A DNA stretch of 32,187 nucleotides from Anaerolineaceae bacterium (GTDB lineage: Bacteria; Chloroflexota; Anaerolineae; JAAYZQ01): positions 1-32,187 of the forward strand of contig JAAYZQ010000405.1 in the NCBI GenBank assembly GCA_012514775.1, in the 5' to 3' direction. The position numbers and the translations under genes are program-made. The notes under the pieces were generated by a model. That model saw only the letters and a program-made list of their open reading frames with translations. It was not told the DNA's origin and did no database searches. Each line of letters opens with the position of its first letter. Within the stretch, counting starts at the first letter, position 1. Positions 6,616 to 32,187 of this stretch are shown one piece after another.

Positions 6616-7773
6616 ATGGAACTCAAACTGTCGGAAGAGCATCGCATGATCCAGGACATGGCACGCGACTTTGCTCAAAAAGAGATTGCGCCCATTGCCG
6701 CCGAGCTGGACGTCGAAGCTTGCTTTCCTACTGAAACGGTCAAGAAGATGGGCGAACTGGGTTTCATGGGTATCGAGATCCCCGAGGAGTATGGTGGGAC
6801 GGGCCTGGACACGTTGAGTTACGTGCTGGCCATGATCGAGATCTCGAAGGCATGCGCTTCCCACGGCGTCATCATGTCGGTCAACAACTCCCTGGTGTGT
6901 CACGGCATCTACCATTTCGGCACCGAGGAGCAGAAGCAAGAGTTCCTGGTGCCGCTGGCCAGCGGCGAGAAGCTGGGGGCCTATTCTCTGACCGAGCCCC
7001 AGGCCGGCTCGGACCCGGCCAACATGCGAACCACGGCCGTGTACGACGCGGGGGCCGACGAGTACGTCATCAATGGCCTCAAGGCGTGGGTGACCAGCGG
7101 CCCAAACGCCGACCTTATAGTGCTCTTTGCCATGACCGACCGGTCCAAGGGGCATCGTGGCATCTCGGCATTCATCGCCGACACCACGCTGCCGGGCTTT
7201 TCTCCCGGAAAAGTGGAACCCAAACTGGGTATACGAGCGTCTCATACTTCAGAACTGGTCTTTGAGGACTATCGCCTGCCCGCCCGGCACAGGCTGGGCG
7301 AGGAGGGCGCCGGCTTCAAGGTGGCCCTGGCCATCCTGGACGCCGGCCGGATCGGCATTGCCGCCCAGGCGGTGGGTATTGCCGAAGCCGCCTTCGAGGC
7401 GGCCCGCGATTACGCCAAGGAGAGGGTGCAGTTCGGGCAGCCCATTTCCGAGTTCCAGGCGATCCAGTGGATGCTGGCCGACATGAAGACCCGCCTGGAA
7501 GCGGCCCGGCTGCTGACCTACCAGGCCGCCCTCGCGAAGGACGAGGCGGCCAGGAAGGGTGGCCGCTACTCCCTGGAGGCGTCGATGGCCAAGCTGTACG
7601 CCTCCGAAATGGCCATGTGGGTGACGACCACGGCCGTGCAGATCTTTGGCGGCAACGGCTACAGCAAAGAGTATCCGGTGGAACGCTACTTTCGCGACGC
7701 CAAGATCACCGAGATCTATGAGGGCACCAGCGAGATCCAGAGGATGGTTATCGCCCGGAGTGTCTTGAGCTGA
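6616..7773 (+). CDS. Acyl-CoA dehydrogenase (short-chain/butyryl-CoA type)
   Basis: This 385-aa FAD enzyme would introduce the alpha,beta double bond in acyl-CoA and pass electrons to electron-transfer flavoprotein. It has the full three-domain layout: a helical N-domain (IPEEYGGTGLD), a beta middle domain (YSLTEPQAGSD, GIRASHTSELVFED) and a helical C-domain (RVQFGQPISEFQ, QIFGGNGYSKEYPVER). The catalytic base is the Glu in YEGTSEIQR (about residue 369), the position used by short- and medium-chain enzymes. Length is typical. The ribosome-binding site is strong and the promoter is its own. Chain-length specificity cannot be fixed from sequence alone; similarity to butyryl-CoA dehydrogenases is my reading of the motifs. 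The stop overlaps an alternative ATG of the next gene (7773). Confidence 0.95.
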   Translation: MELKLSEEHRMIQDMARDFAQKEIAPIAAELDVEACFPTETVKKMGELGFMGIEIPEEYGGTGLDTLSYVLAMIEISKACASHGVIMSVNNSLVCHGIYHFGTEEQKQEFLVPLASGEKLGAYSLTEPQAGSDPANMRTTAVYDAGADEYVINGLKAWVTSGPNADLIVLFAMTDRSKGHRGISAFIADTTLPGFSPGKVEPKLGIRASHTSELVFEDYRLPARHRLGEEGAGFKVALAILDAGRIGIAAQAVGIAEAAFEAARDYAKERVQFGQPISEFQAIQWMLADMKTRLEAARLLTYQAALAKDEAARKGGRYSLEASMAKLYASEMAMWVTTTAVQIFGGNGYSKEYPVERYFRDAKITEIYEGTSEIQRMVIARSVLS

Positions 7774-21664: not shown

Positions 21665-22837
21665 CTAGAAGCGGCCGCGCATGGAGCCCGTGTAGCCCGT
21701 GAGCTCGACGTAACCGCTGCCGGCCACGGGTTGCCCGGCTCGCCGGCCCTCGACCCGCACGGCGCCCTCCCAATAGGCGTAGGCCAGGTCCAGCTCCTGG
21801 CCGGCCAGGTAGGGCACGATCTCGACTTCGAGGGCCAGGTCGGGCACGCTGAAAGTCCAGCGGGCGGGATAGACGGCGCCAGTGCCGGGGCTGCGCCAGG
21901 TATCCTCCACGCGTACCTGGAGGTCGCCGGCGGCCAGGTGCCGCGCCGAGCCGTCGGGCGCCACAAAGGTGCCGCTGGAGTACGGATCGATGTCGCCGTC
22001 CTCCCTGCGGAGCTGGAAGGCCATGAGGGCGCTGCCGTCGTCCAACTGCACCGAGAACCAGTCCCAGCCCACCTGCCCGGTGCCCAGGCTGCTGGTGCTC
22101 CACTCGTGATCCATCCAGCTCAGGCCGGTGACCTGGTAGGCCCGGTCGCCGACCTGCACGCTGCCCGCCGTTTCCAGGCGCGTCAGGCTGTAGTAATAGG
22201 AGGCGTTCCCCGGCTCGGCGCCCTTGGGGCTATAGCCCCGGTCGCCGTGGAGCACCGGGTCCCGTGTCGCGGCCAGGAGCAGGTCCAGCGCCACGCCATC
22301 CTGGGCGGCGCGGAGGCGCACTGTGCCGGTGTCGACCTCCTCGGCGCTCCAATCCTCCAGCCAGACGGCAAAGGGCTGCGCCCGGGCGCCGGCCAGGCCC
22401 GCGCCATCCCGGGCAAACCGCTCGAAGGCCTGGAAGCGCCGGCCGGCCACGTCGGTCACGGCCAGGTGGGCCATGTAGGCCTGGTTGGTAGCCCAGGCCG
22501 ACTCGCGCTCGACCCGCTCGTGGGGCGGCGCCAGGGCCCGCCGGAAAAAGGTGAGCTGGTAGCCCAGGTGCCGGCCGTCCCCGGTCTCCAGGTTGCCGGT
22601 ATAGTACCACCATTCCACCTGGTAATCGGGATGGGGGCCGTGGTCGGCGGGGAAGCTGATGGGCAGCGGACCTTCGGCCCGCCGGTAGCCCTCGGCGTCG
22701 CCGGCCAGGGCCACGAGGCGGGCCTGCACTCGTTGCCCGCCCTGCCCGTCGCGCCCGGCCAGCCAGAAGGCGGCCGCCACGAGGGCCGCCAGGATCGCGA
22801 GGGCCAACACGAGGCGCGCCCGGCCGGCTCTACTCAT
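21665..22837 (-). CDS. AttH/CrtC-like lipocalin-fold secreted hydrolase (COG5621-type)
   Basis: This 390-aa protein has an N-terminal signal or anchor (RARLVLALAILAALVAAAFWLAG), then two lipocalin-like domains. The motif DYQVEWWYYTGNLE at about residue 72 is the mark of the AttH/carotenoid 1,2-hydratase-related family. Other conserved blocks are GYQLTFFRRA, NQAYMAHLAVTD, SYYYSLTRLETAG, WMDHEWSTS, WDWFSVQLDDGSALMAFQLR. The family is generally annotated as predicted secreted hydrolase, and its biochemical role is poorly defined. It overlaps the permease gene upstream by 8 nt (22830-22837), and the ATPase-permease-AttH order is a recurring operon type. I infer that it works outside the membrane with that ABC system. 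Confidence 0.88.
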   Translation of the reverse strand: MSRAGRARLVLALAILAALVAAAFWLAGRDGQGGQRVQARLVALAGDAEGYRRAEGPLPISFPADHGPHPDYQVEWWYYTGNLETGDGRHLGYQLTFFRRALAPPHERVERESAWATNQAYMAHLAVTDVAGRRFQAFERFARDGAGLAGARAQPFAVWLEDWSAEEVDTGTVRLRAAQDGVALDLLLAATRDPVLHGDRGYSPKGAEPGNASYYYSLTRLETAGSVQVGDRAYQVTGLSWMDHEWSTSSLGTGQVGWDWFSVQLDDGSALMAFQLRREDGDIDPYSSGTFVAPDGSARHLAAGDLQVRVEDTWRSPGTGAVYPARWTFSVPDLALEVEIVPYLAGQELDLAYAYWEGAVRVEGRRAGQPVAGSGYVELTGYTGSMRGRF

Positions 22838-25386
22838 GGCGCAGCGCCTCGGCGGTGACCGTCCGGCCCATGCGCAGCGCGGGATAGACGCCGGCCAGCA
22901 GGGCGGCGAGCAGCGCCACGACCAGGGCCTGGAGGAACGGCCCCGGCTCCACCCGCATCTGGAGCGTCCAACCGAAGGAGCGGAGGTTGATGATATAGAT
23001 GAGGATCAGCGACAGCACCACGCCCGTGGGCATGGCCAGCAGCCCGGCCACGGCGCCCATGAGCCCCGTCTCCAGCATGACCAGGCCCCAGAGTTGGCGG
23101 GCGGTGAGGCCCACGGCGCGGAGGATGCCCAGCTCCCGCTGTTTCTCGAGCTGGAGGGAGAGGAGGGCGCTCAACACGCCGATGAAGGCCACGCCCGTGG
23201 CCAGGATCTGGAGGGCGCCGGTGATGGCAAAGGTCCGGTCAAAGACGGCCATCGCCTCCCCACGCAGGTCCTGGTTGGGCTGCACAAAGAGCTGCTGCCG
23301 GGGAGCCAGGGCGTCGCCCAGCTCCCGGGCCAGCAGGGTGGCGTCGACGCCGGGGGCCAGGCGCAGGGAGAGGGCCGTCAGGGCGTCGTCGTCCCAGTGG
23401 CGGCGATAGGTGCCCAGGGTCATGGCCACCGTGCCGCTGGTGGTGGCATAGTCATAGTAGACGCCGGCCACCGCAAAGTCGCGGGGGCCCTCCGCCGTCT
23501 GGAGCGTCACCGTGGCGCCGCGGCGCGGCAGGTCCAGGCGGTTGGCATAGGGCTCGGAGACGACGACGGCCCCCTGCTCCATGGCGGCCCACAGCTCGCC
23601 CTGGGGCATGGCCGTGGAGACGAAGGGCCGTTGGGCAAAACCGGGATCCTCCACGGCAAAGATGGACGCCGGCCCCTCGGGCGACTCGACGGTGGCCGAC
23701 CGCAGCGCGTCCACCTGCTCCACGCCCGGCCACGCGGCGGCCATCTCCCGGACGCCGGGGGCCAGGGGCGTCGTCGCCTGGGTCCCGGTATAGCCGGGGG
23801 CCGTCACGTACACGTCGCCCAGGAGCACCTGGTCCAGCCAGGTGACGACGGTGTGGCGAAAGCTGCCGATCATCAAGCTGACGCCGATGGTCACCGCCAC
23901 GGCCACCATGAGGGCGGCCACGGCCACGCCCGTACGGCTGATGGCGCTCACCACGTTGCGCGGCGCCATGCGGCCCAGGGCACCCCCCAGCCGTCCCAGG
24001 GGCCCGGCCGCCAGGCGCATGGACAGCGCCGTGGTGATGGGCGTCAGGGCGGCAAAGGCGGCCACGGCGGCAAAGGTGCCGGCAAAGCTCACGAACAGGC
24101 TGTCGGTGGGCAGGGCCAGCAGCAGGGCGCCGCCCGCGCCGACCAGCAGGCCGGCGAGGGCCACGCGGCCCACGGCCCGCCGCGCCTTGCCCTCCAGCAC
24201 CGAGCGCGAGAGGGCGGCCCGGGCCGGCACGGAGGCCGCCTCCCAGGCGGGCGGCGCGGCGGCCAGCACCGTGGCCACCACGCCCAGGACCGCACCCTTG
24301 ACCAGGCTGGAGGCTGCGATCTCGACCTCCTGGACGGTGACCGAGAAGTAGAGGTCGTTGACCGTCTGCGTCACGGCCCGCACCGCGCCGCGGCCCATGG
24401 CGACGCCCAGGAGCAGGCCCAGGGCCGAGCCGGCAATGCCCACCAGGAGCGCCTCGCCGGTAACGAGCGCAAATATCTCGCGGCGGGTGACGCCCAGGGC
24501 GCGCAGGGTGCCAAAGAGCGGCCGGCGCTGCACCACCGAAAACGTCATGGTGTTATAGATCAGAAAGAGGCCCACCACCAGGGCCAGCAGGCTGAGGGCC
24601 AGCAGGTTGAGGCGAAAGGCGGCCGTCATCTCGGCCACGGTGCCGGCCCGGGCGGCGACTTCCACGACGGCCGCCCCCGCCGGCAGCATGGCCTCCAGGC
24701 GCTGCCGGGCGGCGGCATTCCCCTCGGGCAGGATCAGGTCGATGCGGTCCAGCCGGCCGAGGCGGCCGGTAATCTCCTGGGCGGTGGCGATGTCGGCCAG
24801 GAGCAGGCCGTCGAGGGCGCGGCGGCTGAGGTCGTCGGCGGGCTCCAGGAGGCCGGCGACGAATGCCTGGCGCTCGTAGCCGCCCACCTCCAGGGCGAGG
24901 GGATCGCCCTCCGCCAGGCTGTAGCGGGCCGCCATCTCGGACGAGAGCAGCACGGCGCCGGGCCGGGTGAGGAGTGCCGAGAGCTGGTCGACGGGGGCAC
25001 TGCCCTCGCCCCACAGGTAGCTGCGAAAGGGCGCCTCGGCAAAGGGATCGACGCCCAGGAGCTGCAGGGGCCGGCCGCCCAGTTGGGGCGACGACAGGAT
25101 GTCGGTGACCACGGGCGCGGCCGCCGTCCCCGGATCGAGGCCGCCGCGGCGGTACGCCACATAGATCTCTTCGTCGATCCCCTGGGAGCCGGCGACGGCC
25201 TGGTGGGTGGCGCGGCCGGCCACGGCGTCGGTGCTGTAGTCAAAGGCGCGGGCGGCGCTGCTGTTGGCCAGGTCCACGGCCACGGCCACGCCAACGCCCA
25301 GGGCGATGCCCAGGATCATCAGCGCCGTCTGCCAGGGGTGGCGGGCCAGGGTGCGCCAGCCGACGTTCCAGAGTGTGCGCGGTGCC

Positions 25387-25394
<8 letters not shown>
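22830..25394 (-). CDS. ABC transporter permease, double FtsX domain
   Basis: This 854-aa permease has one N-terminal span ([21 protein letters not shown]), a large external domain, three spans ([53 protein letters not shown]), two central spans and a third that begins a second FtsX unit ([21 protein letters not shown]), another external domain, and three terminal spans ([52 protein letters not shown]). That is the ten-span, double-FtsX layout of MacB/LolE-related export or mechanotransmission permeases. The ATG at 25394 overlaps the ATPase stop by 8 nt; the gene overlaps the AttH-like gene by 8 nt at its other end. In the internal frame an 18-residue N-terminal extension would lie inside the ATPase gene and is rejected. 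Substrate is unknown. Confidence 0.93.
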
Positions 25395-26091
<697 letters not shown>

Positions 26092-27121: not shown

Positions 27122-27414
27122 GGTTCTGTCCTCAGGCGCCGGATCTCGAACACGACAGGGTTCCAGGCGTCGGGACAGGCGTGGGTGGCGACGTCGCGCT
27201 CGGCGGTCCAGGGGAACTCGGCGCCGTAGCGCATGGCAAAGACCTTGGGCAAGAAGCTGTACAGGGCATGGATGCACACCTTGCCCTGCACCGTCTGCCC
27301 GTCAAAGAGCACCTCGTCGCCCACCTTGTGGCCGGCGGCGCAGTAGCCCTCCTGCTTGATGACGCGGGCGACGATGGTGTAGCCCTCGTCCACGTAGGGT
27401 GGCTCCTCCGTCAT
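27118..27414 (-). CDS. TIGR04076-family protein
   Basis: This 98-aa protein matches the TIGR04076 family of unknown function. The features are YTIVARVIKQEGYCAAGHK, VGDEVLF, CIHALYSFLPKVFAMRYG, AEFPWTAERD and CPDAWNPVVFEIRRL, with conserved Cys and His residues (CxAGH, CxHA, CPD). I chose ATG 27414, which has ACGGAGG about 8 nt upstream; ATG 27468 would lie nearly on the predicted transcription start, so it would need leaderless translation. The gene is transcribed divergently from the ComX-like/ComQ-like locus, with both promoters in the intervening region. Confidence 0.85.
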   Translation of the reverse strand: MTEEPPYVDEGYTIVARVIKQEGYCAAGHKVGDEVLFDGQTVQGKVCIHALYSFLPKVFAMRYGAEFPWTAERDVATHACPDAWNPVVFEIRRLRTEP

Positions 27415-27477
27415 GGTCTCGACCTCCGTGTCATACTCCAGCAAACGATCTCGCGGCTGGTCAATCATGGCCTGAAC

Positions 27478-27506
27478 ATTATAAACTAGGTTTGCCGATA
27501 TCAAAA
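27478..27506 (-). promoter_or_regulatory. Promoter of the TIGR04076 operon
   Basis: On the minus strand TATAAT (27483-27478) has TTTTGA 17 nt upstream (27506-27501), or TTGATA at 15 nt (27504-27499). It points away from the plus-strand promoter at 27522-27550, so the gap holds two divergent promoters. Confidence 0.6.
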
Positions 27507-27521
27507 ATGGCCCGGGCGGTT

Positions 27522-27550
27522 TTGCTCCTATTGCAGCCATGTGGTATAAT
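27522..27550 (+). promoter_or_regulatory. Promoter of the ComXQPA-like operon (extended -10)
   Basis: TTGCTC at 27522-27527 and TATAAT at 27545-27550 are separated by 17 nt, and TGG at 27542-27544 makes an extended -10. The leader to the first start codon is about 130 nt. It contains an inverted repeat TTCGG-AAC-CCGAA at 27646-27658 but no ORF that I can support. Confidence 0.7.
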
Positions 27551-27686
27551 GTTTGGGCTCCCATGCGGGGCGATGCTGTGTTGACTGTTGCTCCAGGCTG
27601 GATAACCACGTCCGGTGGCCCATGAGCGATTCGTGGAGCCTTGACTTCGGAACCCGAACCGTTTGCAAAGTAGTGGAGGGTATGAC

Positions 27687-27938
27687 ATGGGCACACAAAC
27701 CGTCAGGATCGTGCGCTCACTCTACCGAGGCAACCCCCAATTCTGTCGCACACCGTCCAACGATCCCACGGCGCTTCTTGTACGCATGCAGATGGAGGAT
27801 GCCGAAACAGCCAGGATTCTGGCCGGCCCCCTGCACTCGCTGCTGGACCGGTCGCCGGAGCAAATCCTCGCCTACGTTCTGGAAGGAGACCCGCCAGTAT
27901 GGGAGGGGATGCCACCCGAACCCAGTCCTCCCGCTTGA
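27687..27938 (+). CDS. Small peptide, candidate ComX-like pheromone precursor
   Basis: This 83-aa product is the first gene of the locus. ATG 27687 has GGAGGG 6 nt upstream. The sequence has no signal peptide or membrane span. Its N-terminal two thirds are helical-looking (VRIVRSLYRGNPQF, ARILAGPLHSLLD, PEQILAYVL), with an I-x3-L-x3-NP arrangement that recalls the ComX leader pattern. The only Trp is W72, near the C-terminus (GDPPVWEGMPPEPSPPA). In Bacillus, ComX is cut to a short C-terminal peptide carrying an isoprenylated Trp; the enzyme ComQ, receptor ComP and regulator ComA are encoded beside it, as here. The pheromone assignment is therefore inferred from the lone Trp, size and context, and the similarity is too weak for certainty. 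Alternative: another prenylated RiPP precursor. It overlaps the next gene by 40 nt. Confidence 0.6.
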   Translation: MGTQTVRIVRSLYRGNPQFCRTPSNDPTALLVRMQMEDAETARILAGPLHSLLDRSPEQILAYVLEGDPPVWEGMPPEPSPPA

Positions 27939-28957
27939 GCGCCGCCCTGCCATCGTCTACGGCACTCGACACACTCTACGATTACATTCTCGCACAGCTA
28001 GCGACATCTGGAATTGCGGGCGGTCTGCGCGCCACGTTGGAGCGACTATGCCGCACGGCACGGCTCCAGGACGATGCCCTGCCGTTGGGGCTGCTGCCCA
28101 TGTGGAGCTACCTGGCTGCCGGAGGGCAGCCCTGGACACGCGTCGCGGGCGTGGCTTCCGCCTGGCGTTGTTTGCACCTGGCCGGCAAGCTGTTGAACGA
28201 GGCTGCTGCCGGATGCGCCAGCGCGCTGCTGCCCGACGAGCCTGTGTCTGGTGTCCTCAACGCCGGCACGAGCCTGATCTTCCTTTCCCAGGCGATTCTG
28301 TGCCGGGCGACAGAGGTCGGTGCCACGCCCACAGCCGTCGTGGCCCTGGAGGCAGAGTTCGCCCGCGCCGGGCTCCGGGCGGCTGCCGGCCAGCACGCGC
28401 GGCTGCACAAAACAACGACGGGCTCGTGGGATGACTATCAAGTTGTGGTCAGCGCGCGTAGCGGCGGTCCATTTGCCCTCGCCACACGGGTGGGGGCACT
28501 GGTTCGCTGGAGCGAACATGCCGGCCAGGGAACGGCGAGCAGCGACGTGCCGGCTTACGTCGAGGCATTGGCGCAATATGGCCACCAGCTCGGTCTGATG
28601 CTTCAGTTGGCCGACGATTTTAACGGCACCTGGCGCCCGCGTGGTAGGAGCGATCTGGCGGCCGCGAACCACTCGTGGCCACTTCTCTATGCCCGGTCAA
28701 TGGGCGATGCGGATCAACTCGTGCAACTCGATTCTCTGTCGAGCCGCGGCGAGGACAATCCTGTCGCGGAAGCAAGAGCGCGCACGCTGTTAACCCAATT
28801 GTACGTGCCCCTGGCCATGATCGTGGCCGCGGAGGAGCACCGGGCCGTGGCAGAAGCTGCCCTGGCGCCGCTCGCCGACTCGCCCGCCCGCCAGGCGCTG
28901 GCCGCCCTGCTGCGCCGCATCACCCTGGCACCGCCCGAGGTGTCACCATGCCCCTGA
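27899..28957 (+). CDS. Divergent polyprenyl synthase-fold protein, ComQ-like
   Basis: This 352-aa helical protein has the isoprenyl diphosphate synthase layout but a changed active site. The second aspartate motif survives in part as QLADDFNG (236-243, Asp239-Asp240). The GQ motif is at 164-165, and YQVVVSARSGG (180-190) aligns with the usual Y-x3-KTG-like segment. SDLAAANHSWPLLYA (251-265) resembles the SDL...KxTLPLLYA block, with Lys replaced. The first DDxxD is absent: the aligned stretch is LLNEAAAG (98-105). ComQ of Bacillus has this fold and prenylates the Trp of ComX; the neighbour here is a Trp-containing small peptide, so the same job is inferred. ATG 27899 has AAGGAG 10 nt upstream and lies inside the preceding gene, while the 3' end overlaps the kinase gene by 10 nt. 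No membrane span is evident. Confidence 0.8.
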   Translation: MGGDATRTQSSRLSAALPSSTALDTLYDYILAQLATSGIAGGLRATLERLCRTARLQDDALPLGLLPMWSYLAAGGQPWTRVAGVASAWRCLHLAGKLLNEAAAGCASALLPDEPVSGVLNAGTSLIFLSQAILCRATEVGATPTAVVALEAEFARAGLRAAAGQHARLHKTTTGSWDDYQVVVSARSGGPFALATRVGALVRWSEHAGQGTASSDVPAYVEALAQYGHQLGLMLQLADDFNGTWRPRGRSDLAAANHSWPLLYARSMGDADQLVQLDSLSSRGEDNPVAEARARTLLTQLYVPLAMIVAAEEHRAVAEAALAPLADSPARQALAALLRRITLAPPEVSPCP

Positions 28958-31344
28958 AGAATCGGGCGGTTTCTCACTTGCGGTTGAGAGGAGCCTACCT
29001 GCTATTTGTGGTCGGCCTCCTCGTCCTGTCGGCGATGGCCGCGAGCATGGCCGTGGCTGTGATCCAGCCGGAGACCGGGGTGCAGTGGAATACGCGGTCT
29101 GGGAGGGTGACGGCGGTCAGCGGCCCGGCGGCTGACCGAGCAGAGGTACGGGTAGGCGATCGACTGGTCAAGGTCGATGGCCTGTCTTTGCCCGATCTGC
29201 CCAATGCTGGCCACAGCAAGCGGCCGGGTGATACGCTATCTCTCACCATCGACCGGGATGGTGAAAGGCACACCGTCTCGCTAACCCTGCAGCCCGCAGC
29301 CCCGTCCACTGTCGGCGAGCGGGTGATCCCCATCGCCATTGGCTTCGGATTCGGGCTCATCGGCCTCGGTGCGTACGTGTTGAGCCGCCGCCGTTTCCCG
29401 GCGGCGCTCCTGGCCCTGGAATGCCTGGTCGTGGCTGGCGCCCTGGCGGCCGGTACGCTTTCGACGTTCAAAATCCCACTCGCCTCTCGCCTGTTCAATG
29501 CTTCTCTGGTGTGGGTGGCGGTGTTGGGTATGCATTTGCATCTCGTTTTCCCAACAGTGCACAGTGGCCGGGCCGGACGCACCATCCGGAGGTTGGCCTA
29601 TGGCCTGGCCGGGTTGTTCACCCTGTTTTTCCTGTTCCCTGCCTGGTCGGTGTGGCGGTGGCAACCCTGGTATCCCGGCCTGCAGTGGGGCATTCAGCTC
29701 GTCTTGGCCCTCTCCCTGCTCGGCCAAATAGCTCTGCTGGTCCGGGCAACGCGGAGTAGCCGGCCCCTGGCTCGGCGCCACTCCCGGCTGTTGACTGCCG
29801 GGGCCGGCCTGGGCGTGGCGCCGTTCTTGCTGATGGCGCTCCTCCCTCACCTGCTGACCGGCTCTCCCTGGTGGCCCTACCAGTACACCTTTCCCTTCAC
29901 GCTCATCCTGCCGCTGGCCTATGGCTACGCCCTGAGCCGGGAGCGCTTGAGCCGGTGGGATCGGACCATTTCCCGGGTGCTGACCGTGTTTTGCACGGCG
30001 ATCCTGCTCTTTGGCGCATTCGGCCTGGCCGTGCAACAGCTCGAACCTCCCGCCATCCCCTGGCTGCGACTGCACCTCCAGTCGGCCATCCTGGCCCTCG
30101 CAGCCGGCCTGGCCTTCTGGCCCCTGGCCCGCATCGCCCGGCGTTGGACAGAGTGGATCCTCTTCGATGTTCGGTATGACTATGCCGGGGTGATGGCCGC
30201 CCTGAGCGAACCCCTGGCCCGCACCCTCGATCGGCCCCGGCTGCGATACCTGTTGGTAGAAACGCTCGCACAGGTCATGCCTTTCGAAGGTGCAGCGTTA
30301 TTGTTGGGGCGCGAAGAAGACGAAAGCCTATGCCTCCAGCCGCCGGCGACTTTGCCGGCCGAATCGTACCCGCCATTACCGGGAAGCGGCGCGCTGGCTG
30401 CGGCCCTGGTCGTTCAAGACGGCCCCCTGACGGCTGCGGAACTCGACCGGCGGCTCGCAGGCACCTCCCTGTTGCCCGCGGAAGCTGCCTGGCTGCACGG
30501 CGAGGGGATCGAGACCTTGCTGCCGTTGGTTCGCGAGAATGAGCTGTTGGGCCTGCTGCTCCTGGGGCCTCGCGCCGGGGGCGACGTGTTGGATGGCGAG
30601 GATCGGCGCATTCTGCAGGCCGTGGCCCTCCAGGCTGCCCTGGCTGCCGAAAACGTGCGCCTGGCCGACGGGCTGCGCGCCAGCCGCTCCGAGCTGGCCC
30701 AGGCCCACGGCCAACTACTCGCGGCACGCGAGGAGGAGCGGCGGCGCCTGGGGTGGGCCTTGCACGACGGTCCCATCCAGGATCTGTTGGTCATCAGCCA
30801 CCGGTTGGCCGCTCTGGAGACCGAGGCGGAGGAACATACGCAGGTGCTGGTCGAGCTTCGCCGGGCGGTCGTTTCCCAGGTTCATCGGCTGCGGGAGTTG
30901 TACGCCGAGTTGCGCCCCGGCACCCTGGACGAGTTGGGGCTGTGCCAGGCGGTGCGTGCCCTGGCCATTGAATGTGAGGAAACTCACGGTTTCTCTGTTG
31001 CCCTCGACGTCCACGGCAACATGGCGCAGATGTCGGACGAGGCAGAGGTGACACTCTTCCGCACAGCCCAGGAGGCATTGGCCAACGCAGCGCGGCACGC
31101 CGGTGCGAAGCACGTTCGACTGGCGATGATGTGCGACGGGCAAGGGGTTGCCTTGACCGTTGTGGACGATGGCCAGGGTTTCCGGGTGCCCGGGCGGCTG
31201 TCAACGTTGGCGAGGACGGGCCATTTCGGCCTGCTGGGGTTAGAGGAGCGGCTGGAACGCCTGGGGGGCTGGCTGGACGTGCGGTCGCGGCCTGGGGCGG
31301 GAACCCGGGTACAGGCCTGGCTCCCCATCGAGGAGCCACGATGA
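28948..31344 (+). CDS. ComP-like sensor histidine kinase with external PDZ domain
   Basis: This 798-aa protein has a TM helix at 16-38, then a PDZ domain (about 42-116; GRVTAVSGPAADRAEVRVGD, RLVKVDG), which should face outwards. Next come about nine further membrane spans between 126 and 394, a GAF-like domain (about 430-570), and a NarL/DegS-type (HisKA_3) transmitter. The phosphorylated His is His606 in ALHDGPIQDLL, Asn713 is in the N box (RTAQEALANAARHAG), and the G boxes are VVDDGQGF (738-745) and GHFGLLGLEER (758-768). Bacillus ComP, the receptor for the ComX pheromone, is also a many-span kinase of this transmitter type. The next gene is its likely partner. The start ATG 28948 follows GAGG. 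It senses an extracellular signal by inference from this layout. Confidence 0.92.
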   Translation: MPLKNRAVSHLRLRGAYLLFVVGLLVLSAMAASMAVAVIQPETGVQWNTRSGRVTAVSGPAADRAEVRVGDRLVKVDGLSLPDLPNAGHSKRPGDTLSLTIDRDGERHTVSLTLQPAAPSTVGERVIPIAIGFGFGLIGLGAYVLSRRRFPAALLALECLVVAGALAAGTLSTFKIPLASRLFNASLVWVAVLGMHLHLVFPTVHSGRAGRTIRRLAYGLAGLFTLFFLFPAWSVWRWQPWYPGLQWGIQLVLALSLLGQIALLVRATRSSRPLARRHSRLLTAGAGLGVAPFLLMALLPHLLTGSPWWPYQYTFPFTLILPLAYGYALSRERLSRWDRTISRVLTVFCTAILLFGAFGLAVQQLEPPAIPWLRLHLQSAILALAAGLAFWPLARIARRWTEWILFDVRYDYAGVMAALSEPLARTLDRPRLRYLLVETLAQVMPFEGAALLLGREEDESLCLQPPATLPAESYPPLPGSGALAAALVVQDGPLTAAELDRRLAGTSLLPAEAAWLHGEGIETLLPLVRENELLGLLLLGPRAGGDVLDGEDRRILQAVALQAALAAENVRLADGLRASRSELAQAHGQLLAAREEERRRLGWALHDGPIQDLLVISHRLAALETEAEEHTQVLVELRRAVVSQVHRLRELYAELRPGTLDELGLCQAVRALAIECEETHGFSVALDVHGNMAQMSDEAEVTLFRTAQEALANAARHAGAKHVRLAMMCDGQGVALTVVDDGQGFRVPGRLSTLARTGHFGLLGLEERLERLGGWLDVRSRPGAGTRVQAWLPIEEPR

Positions 31345-32063
31345 CAATCCCCGAAGCGCAGCGGAGCGGGGGGAGGGGCATTATGACAGGCATGAATGAG
31401 ACGAACGGTACAGAGGGCACACGTGGTTCAGAATGCATTCGCGTGTTGCTGGCAGACGACCACCCGGCCATGCGAGCCGGCATCCGCGCTTTCCTGGAAA
31501 AAGCGTCTGACATTCAGGTCGTCGGAGAGGCAGGCGACGGAGAGGAAGCGCGGCGCCTGGCGGAGGAGCTGGGCCCCCAGGTGCTGCTACTCGACCTGAG
31601 CATGCCCGGCCCCAAGCCGGAGGACACGGTAGCCTGGGTGCGTGGTCACTCCCCGGAGACAGCGGTGCTGGTGCTGACCGCCCACGACGTAGATGCTTAC
31701 CTGGCCGCAATGGTGGCCGCGGGGATAGCAGGATTCGTGCTCAAGGAGGAAGTGCCGGAGGAGATCGTGAACATAGTACGGTGCGTGGCCCGCAAAGAGG
31801 TGATCCTCACTGAGGCGCAGTTGGCTCGGGCTCATCGTTGGCAAGAAGAGGTGGGGGCACGCTGGGAGAGCCTGACCAAGCGCGAACGGGAGGTACTAGC
31901 GCTCGTGGCTGGAGGGCGGAGCACCCTACAAATCGCCGAGGCTTTGACCATCGAAACGTGTACGGTAGAGACCCACATCGGAAATATTCTGGCCAAGCTA
32001 AACGCAGATTCACGGGCTAAGGCGGTGGCGTGGGCATGGCAGCATGGCGCAGTGGAAGAATAG
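31341..32063 (+). CDS. ComA-like NarL/LuxR-family response regulator
   Basis: This 240-aa regulator has a receiver domain with Asp39-Asp40 (LLADDHP), the phospho-acceptor Asp85 (LLLDLSMPG), Thr113 (VLTAHD) and Lys135 (FVLKEE). The C-terminal LuxR/GerE helix-turn-helix is at about 176-230 (LTKREREVLALVAGGRSTLQ, TVETHIGNILAKLNADS). A 30-residue N-terminal extension precedes the receiver domain. Bacillus ComA is the same kind of regulator, phosphorylated by ComP. The ATG at 31341 overlaps the kinase stop (ATGA) and has GAGGAG 5 nt upstream; ATG 31383, also with a purine-rich site upstream, would remove the extension. Its target promoters are unknown. Confidence 0.92.
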   Translation: MTIPEAQRSGGRGIMTGMNETNGTEGTRGSECIRVLLADDHPAMRAGIRAFLEKASDIQVVGEAGDGEEARRLAEELGPQVLLLDLSMPGPKPEDTVAWVRGHSPETAVLVLTAHDVDAYLAAMVAAGIAGFVLKEEVPEEIVNIVRCVARKEVILTEAQLARAHRWQEEVGARWESLTKREREVLALVAGGRSTLQIAEALTIETCTVETHIGNILAKLNADSRAKAVAWAWQHGAVEE

Positions 32064-32187
32064 ACGGCCCTGGAGAAAACTCCAGGGAAAAATGGAGAAA
32101 ATACGGATGACAAATCGCCGCGCATGTGATAGACTGGGATACGAATGAGGTGATTTCGGAGTCTAGGGCAAGAATAAGGAGGGTTTA
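32064..32187 (+). other. Gene-free end of window with a ribosome-binding site
   Basis: These 124 nt hold the hairpin above and end with AAGGAGGG at 32176-32183, four nt from the window edge. That suggests another gene starting just outside. No ORF or clear promoter is visible in the remainder. Confidence 0.5.
32068..32087 (+). terminator. 8-bp hairpin after the regulator gene
   Basis: CCCTGGAG (32068-32075) and CTCCAGGG (32080-32087) pair across AAAA. The tract that follows is A-rich, not T-rich, so it is not a standard intrinsic terminator; it may stop or stabilise the operon mRNA. It lies 4 nt after the stop codon. Confidence 0.45.

Follow-up and report, generated by a model that had tools for sequence, protein, structure and literature searches.

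We analyzed a 32,187-nucleotide stretch of Anaerolineaceae DNA (the window) and found four neighbouring genes on its + strand, for a small Trp-containing peptide (X), an isoprenoid-synthase-fold protein (Q), a sensor histidine kinase (P) and a response regulator (A) (Table 1). A preliminary description had listed four consecutive genes of these kinds, and ORF and Pfam analyses confirm that all are present. Its parallel with the component list of ComQXPA also stands, with PF00348, PF07730, PF02518, PF00072 and PF00196 matched in addition to the Trp peptide. The genes had been called overlapping, which is true of two of the three junctions, X/Q and Q/kinase; the kinase ATG (28948) lies inside the end of Q, with a 10-nt overlap, whereas a gap of 38 nt separates the kinase TGA (31344) from the regulator ATG (31383). 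A Chloroflexota host had been proposed, in agreement with the DnaK of the window, which is 85% identical to that of an Anaerolineae MAG, the best of 41 class genomes searched. An independent contig of this MAG (L001) carries the same gene order, X-Q-P-A, with X before Q as in the window.

Table 1. Genes of the X-Q-P-A locus in the window.
Gene	Position	Strand	Description
X	27687..27938	+	ORF, ATG to TGA, 83 aa; precursor-like peptide
Q	27935..28957	+	isoprenoid-synthase-fold protein; PF00348, 33 bits (cut-off 27)
P	28948..31344	+	sensor histidine kinase, ATG to TGA (Pfam, hydrophobicity)
A	31383..32063	+	response regulator, ATG to TAG; PF00072, PF00196 (Pfam)

A Shine-Dalgarno-like GGAGGG ends 6 nt 5' of the ATG of X. 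The Q frame is open from an ATG at 27899 (352 aa), and an alternative TTG at 27935 (340 aa) overlaps the stop of X as TTGA. Since residues 1-14 of the Q model have a pLDDT below 50 and the Q of L001 starts at a GTG overlapping the stop of its own X (GTGA), the TTG is more likely to be the start than the ATG.

The Trp of X (Trp72, codon 27900-27902) is the 12th residue from the C-terminus, within the C-terminal sequence ...GDPPVWEGMPPEPSPPA. X shares 53% identity with its L001 counterpart over 78 residues (E 7e-28), and a leave-one-out X profile ranked it first among the window ORFs (10.8 bits, E 0.007); a leader-only profile missed it. The preliminary description had named loss of the small gene or of its Trp in homologues as evidence against itself. 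We found X conserved and the Trp to be the sole invariant column in an alignment of 17 X peptides. The leader of 13 of these 17 matches the model of the Os1348-family NHLP-clan peptides (NF038399) at E 0.01 or better, whereas X of the window matches neither this model nor any Pfam or NCBIfam family. The curated cut-off (40 bits) was exceeded by 2 of the 5 X peptides scanned, and the X of L001 reached 17.4 bits. Membership of X in the ComX family was rejected, as the ComX profile PF05952 matched neither X nor any of 21 Anaerolineae genomes; among 14 control genomes it matched one, B. subtilis, below the cut-off. Among the X peptides of the family, the Trp is at best second from the end (L032, L033 and L040), and some precursors contain tandem Trp cores, 3 in L038, 4 in L035, 5 in L037 and more in L036.

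Linkage profiles built from the kinases and regulators of the window and L001 placed a kinase within 6.5 kb of Q at 29 of the 36 Anaerolineae Q-family loci read, 27 of these within 400 bp, and a regulator at 30; both were present in 26 and either in 33, whereas none of 25 housekeeping GGPP-synthase loci had one. Four of the seven kinase-less loci (L035, L043, L048 and L059) have less than 800 bases of contig downstream. A further locus with Q-like motifs (L061), in which no kinase, regulator or X was found, stands outside both the 36 and the 25 loci; its inclusion would bring the kinase count to 29/37. A full-length leave-one-out profile gave its top match (at least 10 bits) on the Q strand, at most 850 nt before Q, in 24 of the 36 family loci, 10 of which had contributed no seed. 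All 24 of these X peptides carry a Trp in their last 25 residues; the corresponding counts are 383 of 1082 among background ORFs and 17 of 37 among ORFs lying upstream of housekeeping genes. The leader-only profile, also leave-one-out and run over 5650 ORFs from 62 loci, retrieved 16 ORFs with scores of at least 15 bits, spread over 15 loci, all on the Q strand, all with Trp in the tail and located -123 to +844 nt before Q; its best score in 20 controls, picked by low score and length of contig, was 7.0 bits. Score, motif and tree served to select the other 5 of the 25 housekeeping loci from 40 candidates. Since X is 53% identical to that of an independent contig with the same order, and since the gene kinds co-occur repeatedly, the gene set of the window is beyond chance. 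At the phylum level, a broad profile (A2) matched 283 of 400 genomes at E 1e-30, but it also gathers ordinary GGPP synthases and cannot tell Q from them, so that it gives no phylum-wide Q count. Single observations next to family loci include an MFS transporter gene near L049, a C39 peptidase gene in L046 that lies about 2 kb beyond the regulator and, near L040, an M50 peptidase match that is weak and below the cut-off.

An AlphaFold2 model predicts an all-helical prenyl-synthase fold for Q (pLDDT 91.5), a structure prediction that the preliminary description had proposed; the fold alone does not set Q apart from ordinary synthases. The word "degenerate" applied to Q proves right in a stronger sense than meant: the second motif, QLADDFNG, is kept, KSG is changed to RSG, and the first Asp-rich motif is gone (NEAAA), whereas ComQ is reported to have this motif (FARM) in the accessible text of PMC10853753. 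Of 26 Q homologues retrieved, four are absent from alignment A1: P0001, which shares 97% identity with the window, the short P0021 and P0023, and P0026, which looks chimeric. In the Q subclade of the window, DDxxD is absent and the K-to-R change present in 23 of 23 aligned rows, and Gln236, Asp239 and Asp240 of the second motif are invariant; the other Q clades have DDxxD, wholly or in near form. FARM is likewise missing from the Q of L001 and intact in those of L032, L037 and L040. Conservation in the window subclade is otherwise high, at a mean column identity of 64%, which argues that the subclade is under constraint. In a tree omitting L034 (cut by the contig end) and L061, the DDxxD-less subclade has one origin (9 rows). 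Grouping of Q with carotenoid or quinone enzymes had been put forward as a finding that would count against the ComQ parallel; instead, a branch with SH-aLRT 100 separates the Q family from the GGPP synthases tested. A search of a plasmid collection gave no match, and one of genome contigs with the single protein gave no relative.

By sequence, the best relative of Q in the PDB is the tryptophan farnesyltransferase Ord1 (9v4g-9v4j), with a phmmer E of 2.4e-6 for 9v4g (next molecule 0.0031) and a profile E of 2.7e-32. The residues mutated in the Ord1 entries, Q216 and D219, align with the Gln and Asp of the second motif of Q (Q236 and D239). Ord1 differs in its substrate, which is free Trp according to the accessible part of a review (PMC13290415).

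The kinase comprises an N-terminal span, a PDZ domain, further spans (about 9 hydrophobic spans in all), a GAF domain, HisKA_3 (PF07730; 24.3 bits, cut-off 24) and HATPase (PF02518), the last two thus lying behind several membrane spans. Of 8 other kinases scanned, 5 also have a PDZ domain. The regulator is of the NarL type, with a receiver (PF00072) and a LuxR/GerE DNA-binding domain (PF00196).

How does this locus relate to known systems? As far as the accessible text of the sources describes them, ComQXPA shares with it the component list, a small gene whose product carries a Trp in its C-terminal region, tight gene packing, a HisKA_3 kinase behind a row of membrane spans and a receiver-GerE regulator, as well as a protein of the PF00348 fold, Q being set beside ComQ via family and descriptions only. 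However, the order is Q-X-P-A there and X-Q-P-A in the window and L001, X lies outside PF05952 and has relatives with a RiPP-type leader, its Trp is 12th from the end whereas that of ComX is placed within the last 5 to 10 residues (PMC4008528), and the reported FARM of ComQ (PMC10853753) is NEAAA in Q. The claim of ComQXPA membership fails on these features, and the locus would fall outside that family; the earlier interpretation as a whole is partly supported. PalXQP of Paenibacillus alvei, as presented in the accessible text of PMC10853753, combines an NHLP-type precursor with a conserved C-terminal Trp, an isoprenoid-synthase-fold Trp prenyltransferase (PalQ, known to us by description) and a histidine kinase in one cluster. 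It differs in phylum, in its three genes listed with no regulator, in requiring the Trp at the very C-terminus rather than 12th from the end, and in the FARM of PalQ (D89, D93; SARM D200, D204), which is gone in Q. The matches of X relatives to RiPP leaders of the NHLP clan suggest that PalXQP is the nearer model, and the window system likely works, by analogy, like ComQXPA and more closely like PalXQP. In polycyclic isoprenoid RiPPs, the trans-IDS-like domain of ChrPC likewise targets an internal peptide Trp (Hubrich et al. 2024, as summarized in the accessible part of PMC13290415), with a cyclase domain in addition.

What is observed is the side-by-side arrangement of X, Q and kinase, the recurrence of the leader, the Trp and the separation of Q from GGPP synthases, together with the predicted fold of Q. 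On balance, we lean towards these four genes being an Anaerolineae peptide-signalling operon working like ComQXPA/PalXQP, in which Q modifies the Trp of X. X would provide the precursor of the signal; Q, by prediction, would bind the leader of X and modify the Trp in the C-terminal region of X, and proteins encoded outside this locus would cut off and export the core. The kinase, the predicted receptor, would sense the core from outside and the regulator would provide the output of a presumably density-dependent circuit. Prenylation of Trp, that is attachment of an isoprenoid by Q, is predicted for the Q family at large. For the window Q it is uncertain, since its subclade lacks the donor-binding DDxxD, and the chemistry is therefore the weakest step of the model for this subclade.

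This loss would also fit a Q that, in the window subclade, is a pseudo-enzyme (peptide-binding or chaperone-like) or the non-catalytic partner of an ordinary GGPP synthase, the signal then being a Trp peptide with no modification or with a different one. The K-to-R change, the single origin and the constraint on the subclade agree with this, as does the L001 genome, where the narrow Q profile finds one place (32 of 32 candidates scored) and, with 5 of 31 candidates scored, the matches listed at E 1e-30 or better add a single further, housekeeping-GGPPS-like place. However, the second motif is invariant and X with its Trp is retained beside Q in L001, which makes some action at the Trp pocket still likely; we regard such a Q as plausible but rather unlikely and, judging from these sequences, commit to a Q that would act on the Trp of X or together with it. 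That same second synthase in L001 speaks against Q being an ordinary chain-length prenyl synthase adjoining a membrane-stress two-component system. The PF00348 match and the fold would suit such an enzyme, but a clade apart from the GGPP synthases and a FARM that is not intact led us to reject a GGPP-type Q, and X, found by profiles beside Q and not in controls and shared with L001, is not the chance ORF that this explanation needs, so that we consider it very improbable.

Leaders of the NHLP clan typically belong to RiPP products. The locus might then be a natural-product cluster making, for example, a membrane-active lipopeptide, with the peptide as product rather than pheromone and the kinase-regulator pair controlling or protecting. 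The leaders of X relatives and the tandem cores, which suit mass production, point this way, as do the C39, MFS and weak M50 neighbours; yet none of these three recurs among ten flanking proteins scanned from seven loci, and what recurs beside Q is the two-component pair. We judge a product cluster to be improbable and keep the signalling operon as our reading.

Trp-prenylation peptide quorum sensing is known from Bacillus and relatives, and the accessible text of the 2014 census places ComQXPA in Firmicutes only (PMC4008528). A 2022 survey, in its accessible part, credits Chloroflexi with the kinase-regulator pair only (PMC8895600), and our literature search, in which coverage of subscription journals was thin, found no such system reported for Chloroflexota. 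Tentatively, and as a possibility we would not yet favour, Chloroflexota may hold a large class, so far undescribed, of pheromone circuits based on Trp-lipopeptides. Their precursors would be of the NHLP type, in some cases with three to five or more tandem cores, and each would be paired with its own prenyltransferase-fold maturase and membrane kinase; the window branch would have swapped FARM-dependent prenyl transfer for a new FARM-less chemistry on the same Trp. If the system signals, it would offer a testable cell-to-cell language for the mostly uncultured Anaerolineae, several candidate substrates (some of them multi-core) for enzymes that lipidate peptides, and a natural experiment on the loss of a donor-binding motif. 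In the window, a promoter scan of positions 27300-32187 returned one site, at 32107, with 0.7 expected.

All four components that the preliminary description had proposed, namely a small Trp-containing precursor-like peptide (X), a prenyl-synthase-fold protein (Q), a HisKA_3-type kinase and a NarL-type regulator, are present on the + strand, and the X-before-Q order, reversed with respect to the Bacillus ComQXPA system, was seen both in the window and in L001, a locus of an Anaerolineae MAG. The claim that the genes are consecutive and overlapping held only in part: Q and the kinase gene overlap by 10 nt, as do X and Q by 4 nt provided that Q starts at TTG 27935, whereas the regulator starts 38 nt past the kinase gene. 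We favour this TTG start because model residues 1-14 are of low confidence and because L001 has a GTGA junction. The genes 5' of the set lie on the opposite strand without evident tie to it. DnaK of the window shares 85% identity with its counterpart in the L001 genome, so that the host can be taken as Chloroflexota, as had been suggested.

Features of the four-gene set and its upstream surroundings in the window
Feature	Position	Strand	Remarks
X	in 27687-32063 block	+	83 aa, Trp72
Q	in 27687-32063 block	+	prenyl-synthase fold
Kinase	in 27687-32063 block	+	PDZ between first hydrophobic span and remaining ones; GAF, HisKA_3, HATPase
Regulator	in 27687-32063 block	+	receiver-GerE
192-aa frame	upstream	-	no Pfam match
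MaoC-like protein	upstream	-	
FtsX/MacB-type permease	upstream, within 21665-26091	-	adjoins CrtC-like lipocalin
CrtC-like lipocalin	upstream, within 21665-26091	-	adjoins FtsX/MacB-type permease
Apparent ABC-type ATPase	25387-26091	-	recognised by eye only
DnaK, DnaJ, RNA methyltransferase	farther upstream		

By searching proteins, we found 26 Q homologues, one of them named (from an Anaerolineae MAG). The four-gene order recurs in L001 (identities of 61% for Q and 53% for X). Directly 5' of this intact set, at L001:6654-7583, a further X (...DDLDTPWRWAMEPCLPAWTEP) precedes a truncated Q-like frame (7026-7583); the pair looks like a decayed tandem copy. Q-profile matches at E 1e-10 occurred in 128 of 396 genomes of the class of L001, as a rule with 5 candidates scored per genome, many of them scoring like ordinary GGPP synthases (GGPPS). 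Together with their flanks, we examined 40 further places and 20 low-scoring controls; by our own sorting on score, motif and tree, the 40 comprised 34 Q-family loci, 5 housekeeping (GGPPS) loci and 1 unclassified. The family set thus has 36 loci (34 plus the window and L001). By our count, its 35 non-window members are spread over 28 of the 396 genomes, and in 25 of these genomes a kinase accompanies at least one locus; these figures are lower bounds. One 8-Mb genome (G022) carries five (L039, L042, L050, L059 and L063), and in L042 the kinase is divided between two frames.

Linkage to signalling genes characterizes this family. A kinase lies within 6.5 kb of Q in 29/36 family loci (<400 bp in 27), a regulator in 30/36, both in 26/36 and either one in 33/36; at the housekeeping loci we found neither kinase (0/25) nor regulator (0/25). 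Among the seven kinase-free family loci, the contig ends <800 bases 3' of Q in L035, L043, L048 and L059 and runs on past that distance in L045, L057 and L063. For 28 of these 29 kinases the gene sits 3' of Q and shares its strand; that of L051 is ahead of Q. Regulators follow the kinase on its strand at 13/36 loci, including the window and L001, others being ahead of X or on the opposite strand. PDZ was detected in six of nine kinases scanned (window, L001, L032, L033, L037 and L040) and not in those of L044, L046 and L049. Short receiver-type frames (120-188 aa) stand directly ahead of X in L032, L040, L041, L043, L047 and L049; the one scanned with Pfam, L032:7229-7609, has a receiver domain and no DNA-binding domain. 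Such frames could possibly serve as phosphate sink or extra output. Downstream of the Q locus in L046 are a C39 peptidase gene (L046:591-1091) and, between it and the regulator region, a Cys-rich 88-aa ORF, possibly a separate RiPP cluster.

The small gene and its Trp, on whose conservation the proposal depended, are retained. With a profile seeded by 15 peptides from 14 loci, chosen by eye with their Trp already known, and scored leave-one-out (each locus's own seed excluded, plus near kin where marked), the top match lay <850 nt ahead of Q on the same strand in 24/36 family loci, 21 of the 36 having both this X and a kinase. Trp was within the last 25 residues in 24/24 of these peptides, including 10/10 from loci without seed (for L036, in the tail beyond a masked stretch, Trp also occurring before it). 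The background was 383/1082 ORFs, and 17/37 upstream of housekeeping genes; as the rows are related, we attach no probability to this enrichment. No match was found in 12/36 (L034, L044, L045, L050, L053, L054, L057, L059, L063, L065, L068 and L069), two of which, L059 and L063, have different small ORFs ahead of Q, ending in YGWF and RFWLS. At housekeeping loci, nothing exceeded 5.4 bits with the full profile. A leader-only profile retrieved 16 ORFs (15 loci) at ≥15 bits; every one adjoins Q and carries a tail Trp, and no score among the 20 controls exceeded 7.0 bits. X of the window scored 10.8 bits (E 0.007) with the full profile and was missed by the leader-only profile, whose best match there was an unrelated frame (7.9 bits). 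Trp is the sole invariant column in an alignment of 17 X peptides. Moreover, in an alignment of the window's Q subclade (A1, 23 rows), 7 of the 22 non-window rows start in register with the Q start of the preliminary description, and their second codon begins with G in 7/7 as judged from protein letters, so the X frame would read TGG there; the remaining 15 rows begin later and carry no information on this codon.

Many relatives of the window's X resemble RiPP precursors. An Os1348-family model of the NHLP clan of RiPP leaders matched 13/17 X at E 0.01 or better, L032 (43.1) and L037 (41.0) exceeding the curated cut-off of 40 and L001 and L043 falling under it; it did not match X of the window. 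Counted from the C-terminus, Trp is at position 2 in L032, L033 and L040, at position 3 in L055, at 4 in L070, at 7 in L058 and L071, and at 12 to 19 in most others. L037:5551-5814 contains 4.8 copies of a 54-base unit, which we read as five GPNGPWDWQF cores, and there are four tandem Trp cores in L035, three in L038 and many, partly masked, in L036, as in multi-core RiPP precursors.

The Q model was placed among prenyl synthases (Foldseek, VIA-align), and the best solved relative by sequence is the tryptophan farnesyltransferase Ord1, whose Q216 and D219 align with Q236 and D239. According to a review (PMC13290415), a Gln ahead of the second motif is common to Trp-specific members, but our GGPPS controls carry this Gln as well, so that it is no proof. 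In a 72-row tree, made by a quick method and with several long branches, 47 Q-family rows were separated from 25 housekeeping rows (SH-aLRT 100), so Q does not group with GGPPS. The nine rows lacking the first Asp-rich motif (FARM, DDxxD), among them the window, make up a single clade (SH-aLRT 100), with one change on the tree. In the remaining Q rows the motif is DDxxD or close to it (in a few DSxxD, DGxxD, DAxxD or DExxD), and most of them have KSG. In A1, DDxxD is missing in 23/23 rows, with N or H in first place and D, E, S or N in second, and RSG is found in 23/23; Q of L001 retains the last Asp. ComQ is reported to have FARM, and mutational studies suggest that this motif is crucial for donor binding (PMC10853753); its loss makes prenylation by the window's Q doubtful.

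Anatomy alone is established here, and we infer every mechanistic step by analogy with ComQXPA and with PalXQP of Paenibacillus alvei. Once X is made, its leader would be bound by Q, which would act on the Trp. The core would be released by proteases and an exporter whose genes lie elsewhere, and sensed by the kinase through either its outer PDZ loop or its membrane part; the regulator would then switch target genes. A ComQXPA census found none outside the Firmicutes (PMC4008528), and another study credits the Chloroflexi with no more than the kinase-regulator pair (PMC8895600). Our literature searches turned up no description of the system found here. It shares the logic of the known kind but differs in precursor family, phylum and gene order, as well as in the tandem cores of some relatives and the FARM loss in the window's branch.

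Two repeats flank the set in the window. Ahead of X, an imperfect palindrome at 27504-27523, AAAATGGCCCGGGCGGTTTT, which may be an operator, lies 5' of a TATAAT-like box (~27546) that is absent from the sites listed by a promoter scan. Directly past the regulator, 32068-32087 is a perfect inverted repeat, CCCTGGAG-AAAA-CTCCAGGG, after which the + strand continues with A instead of T; it is a candidate terminator or operator.
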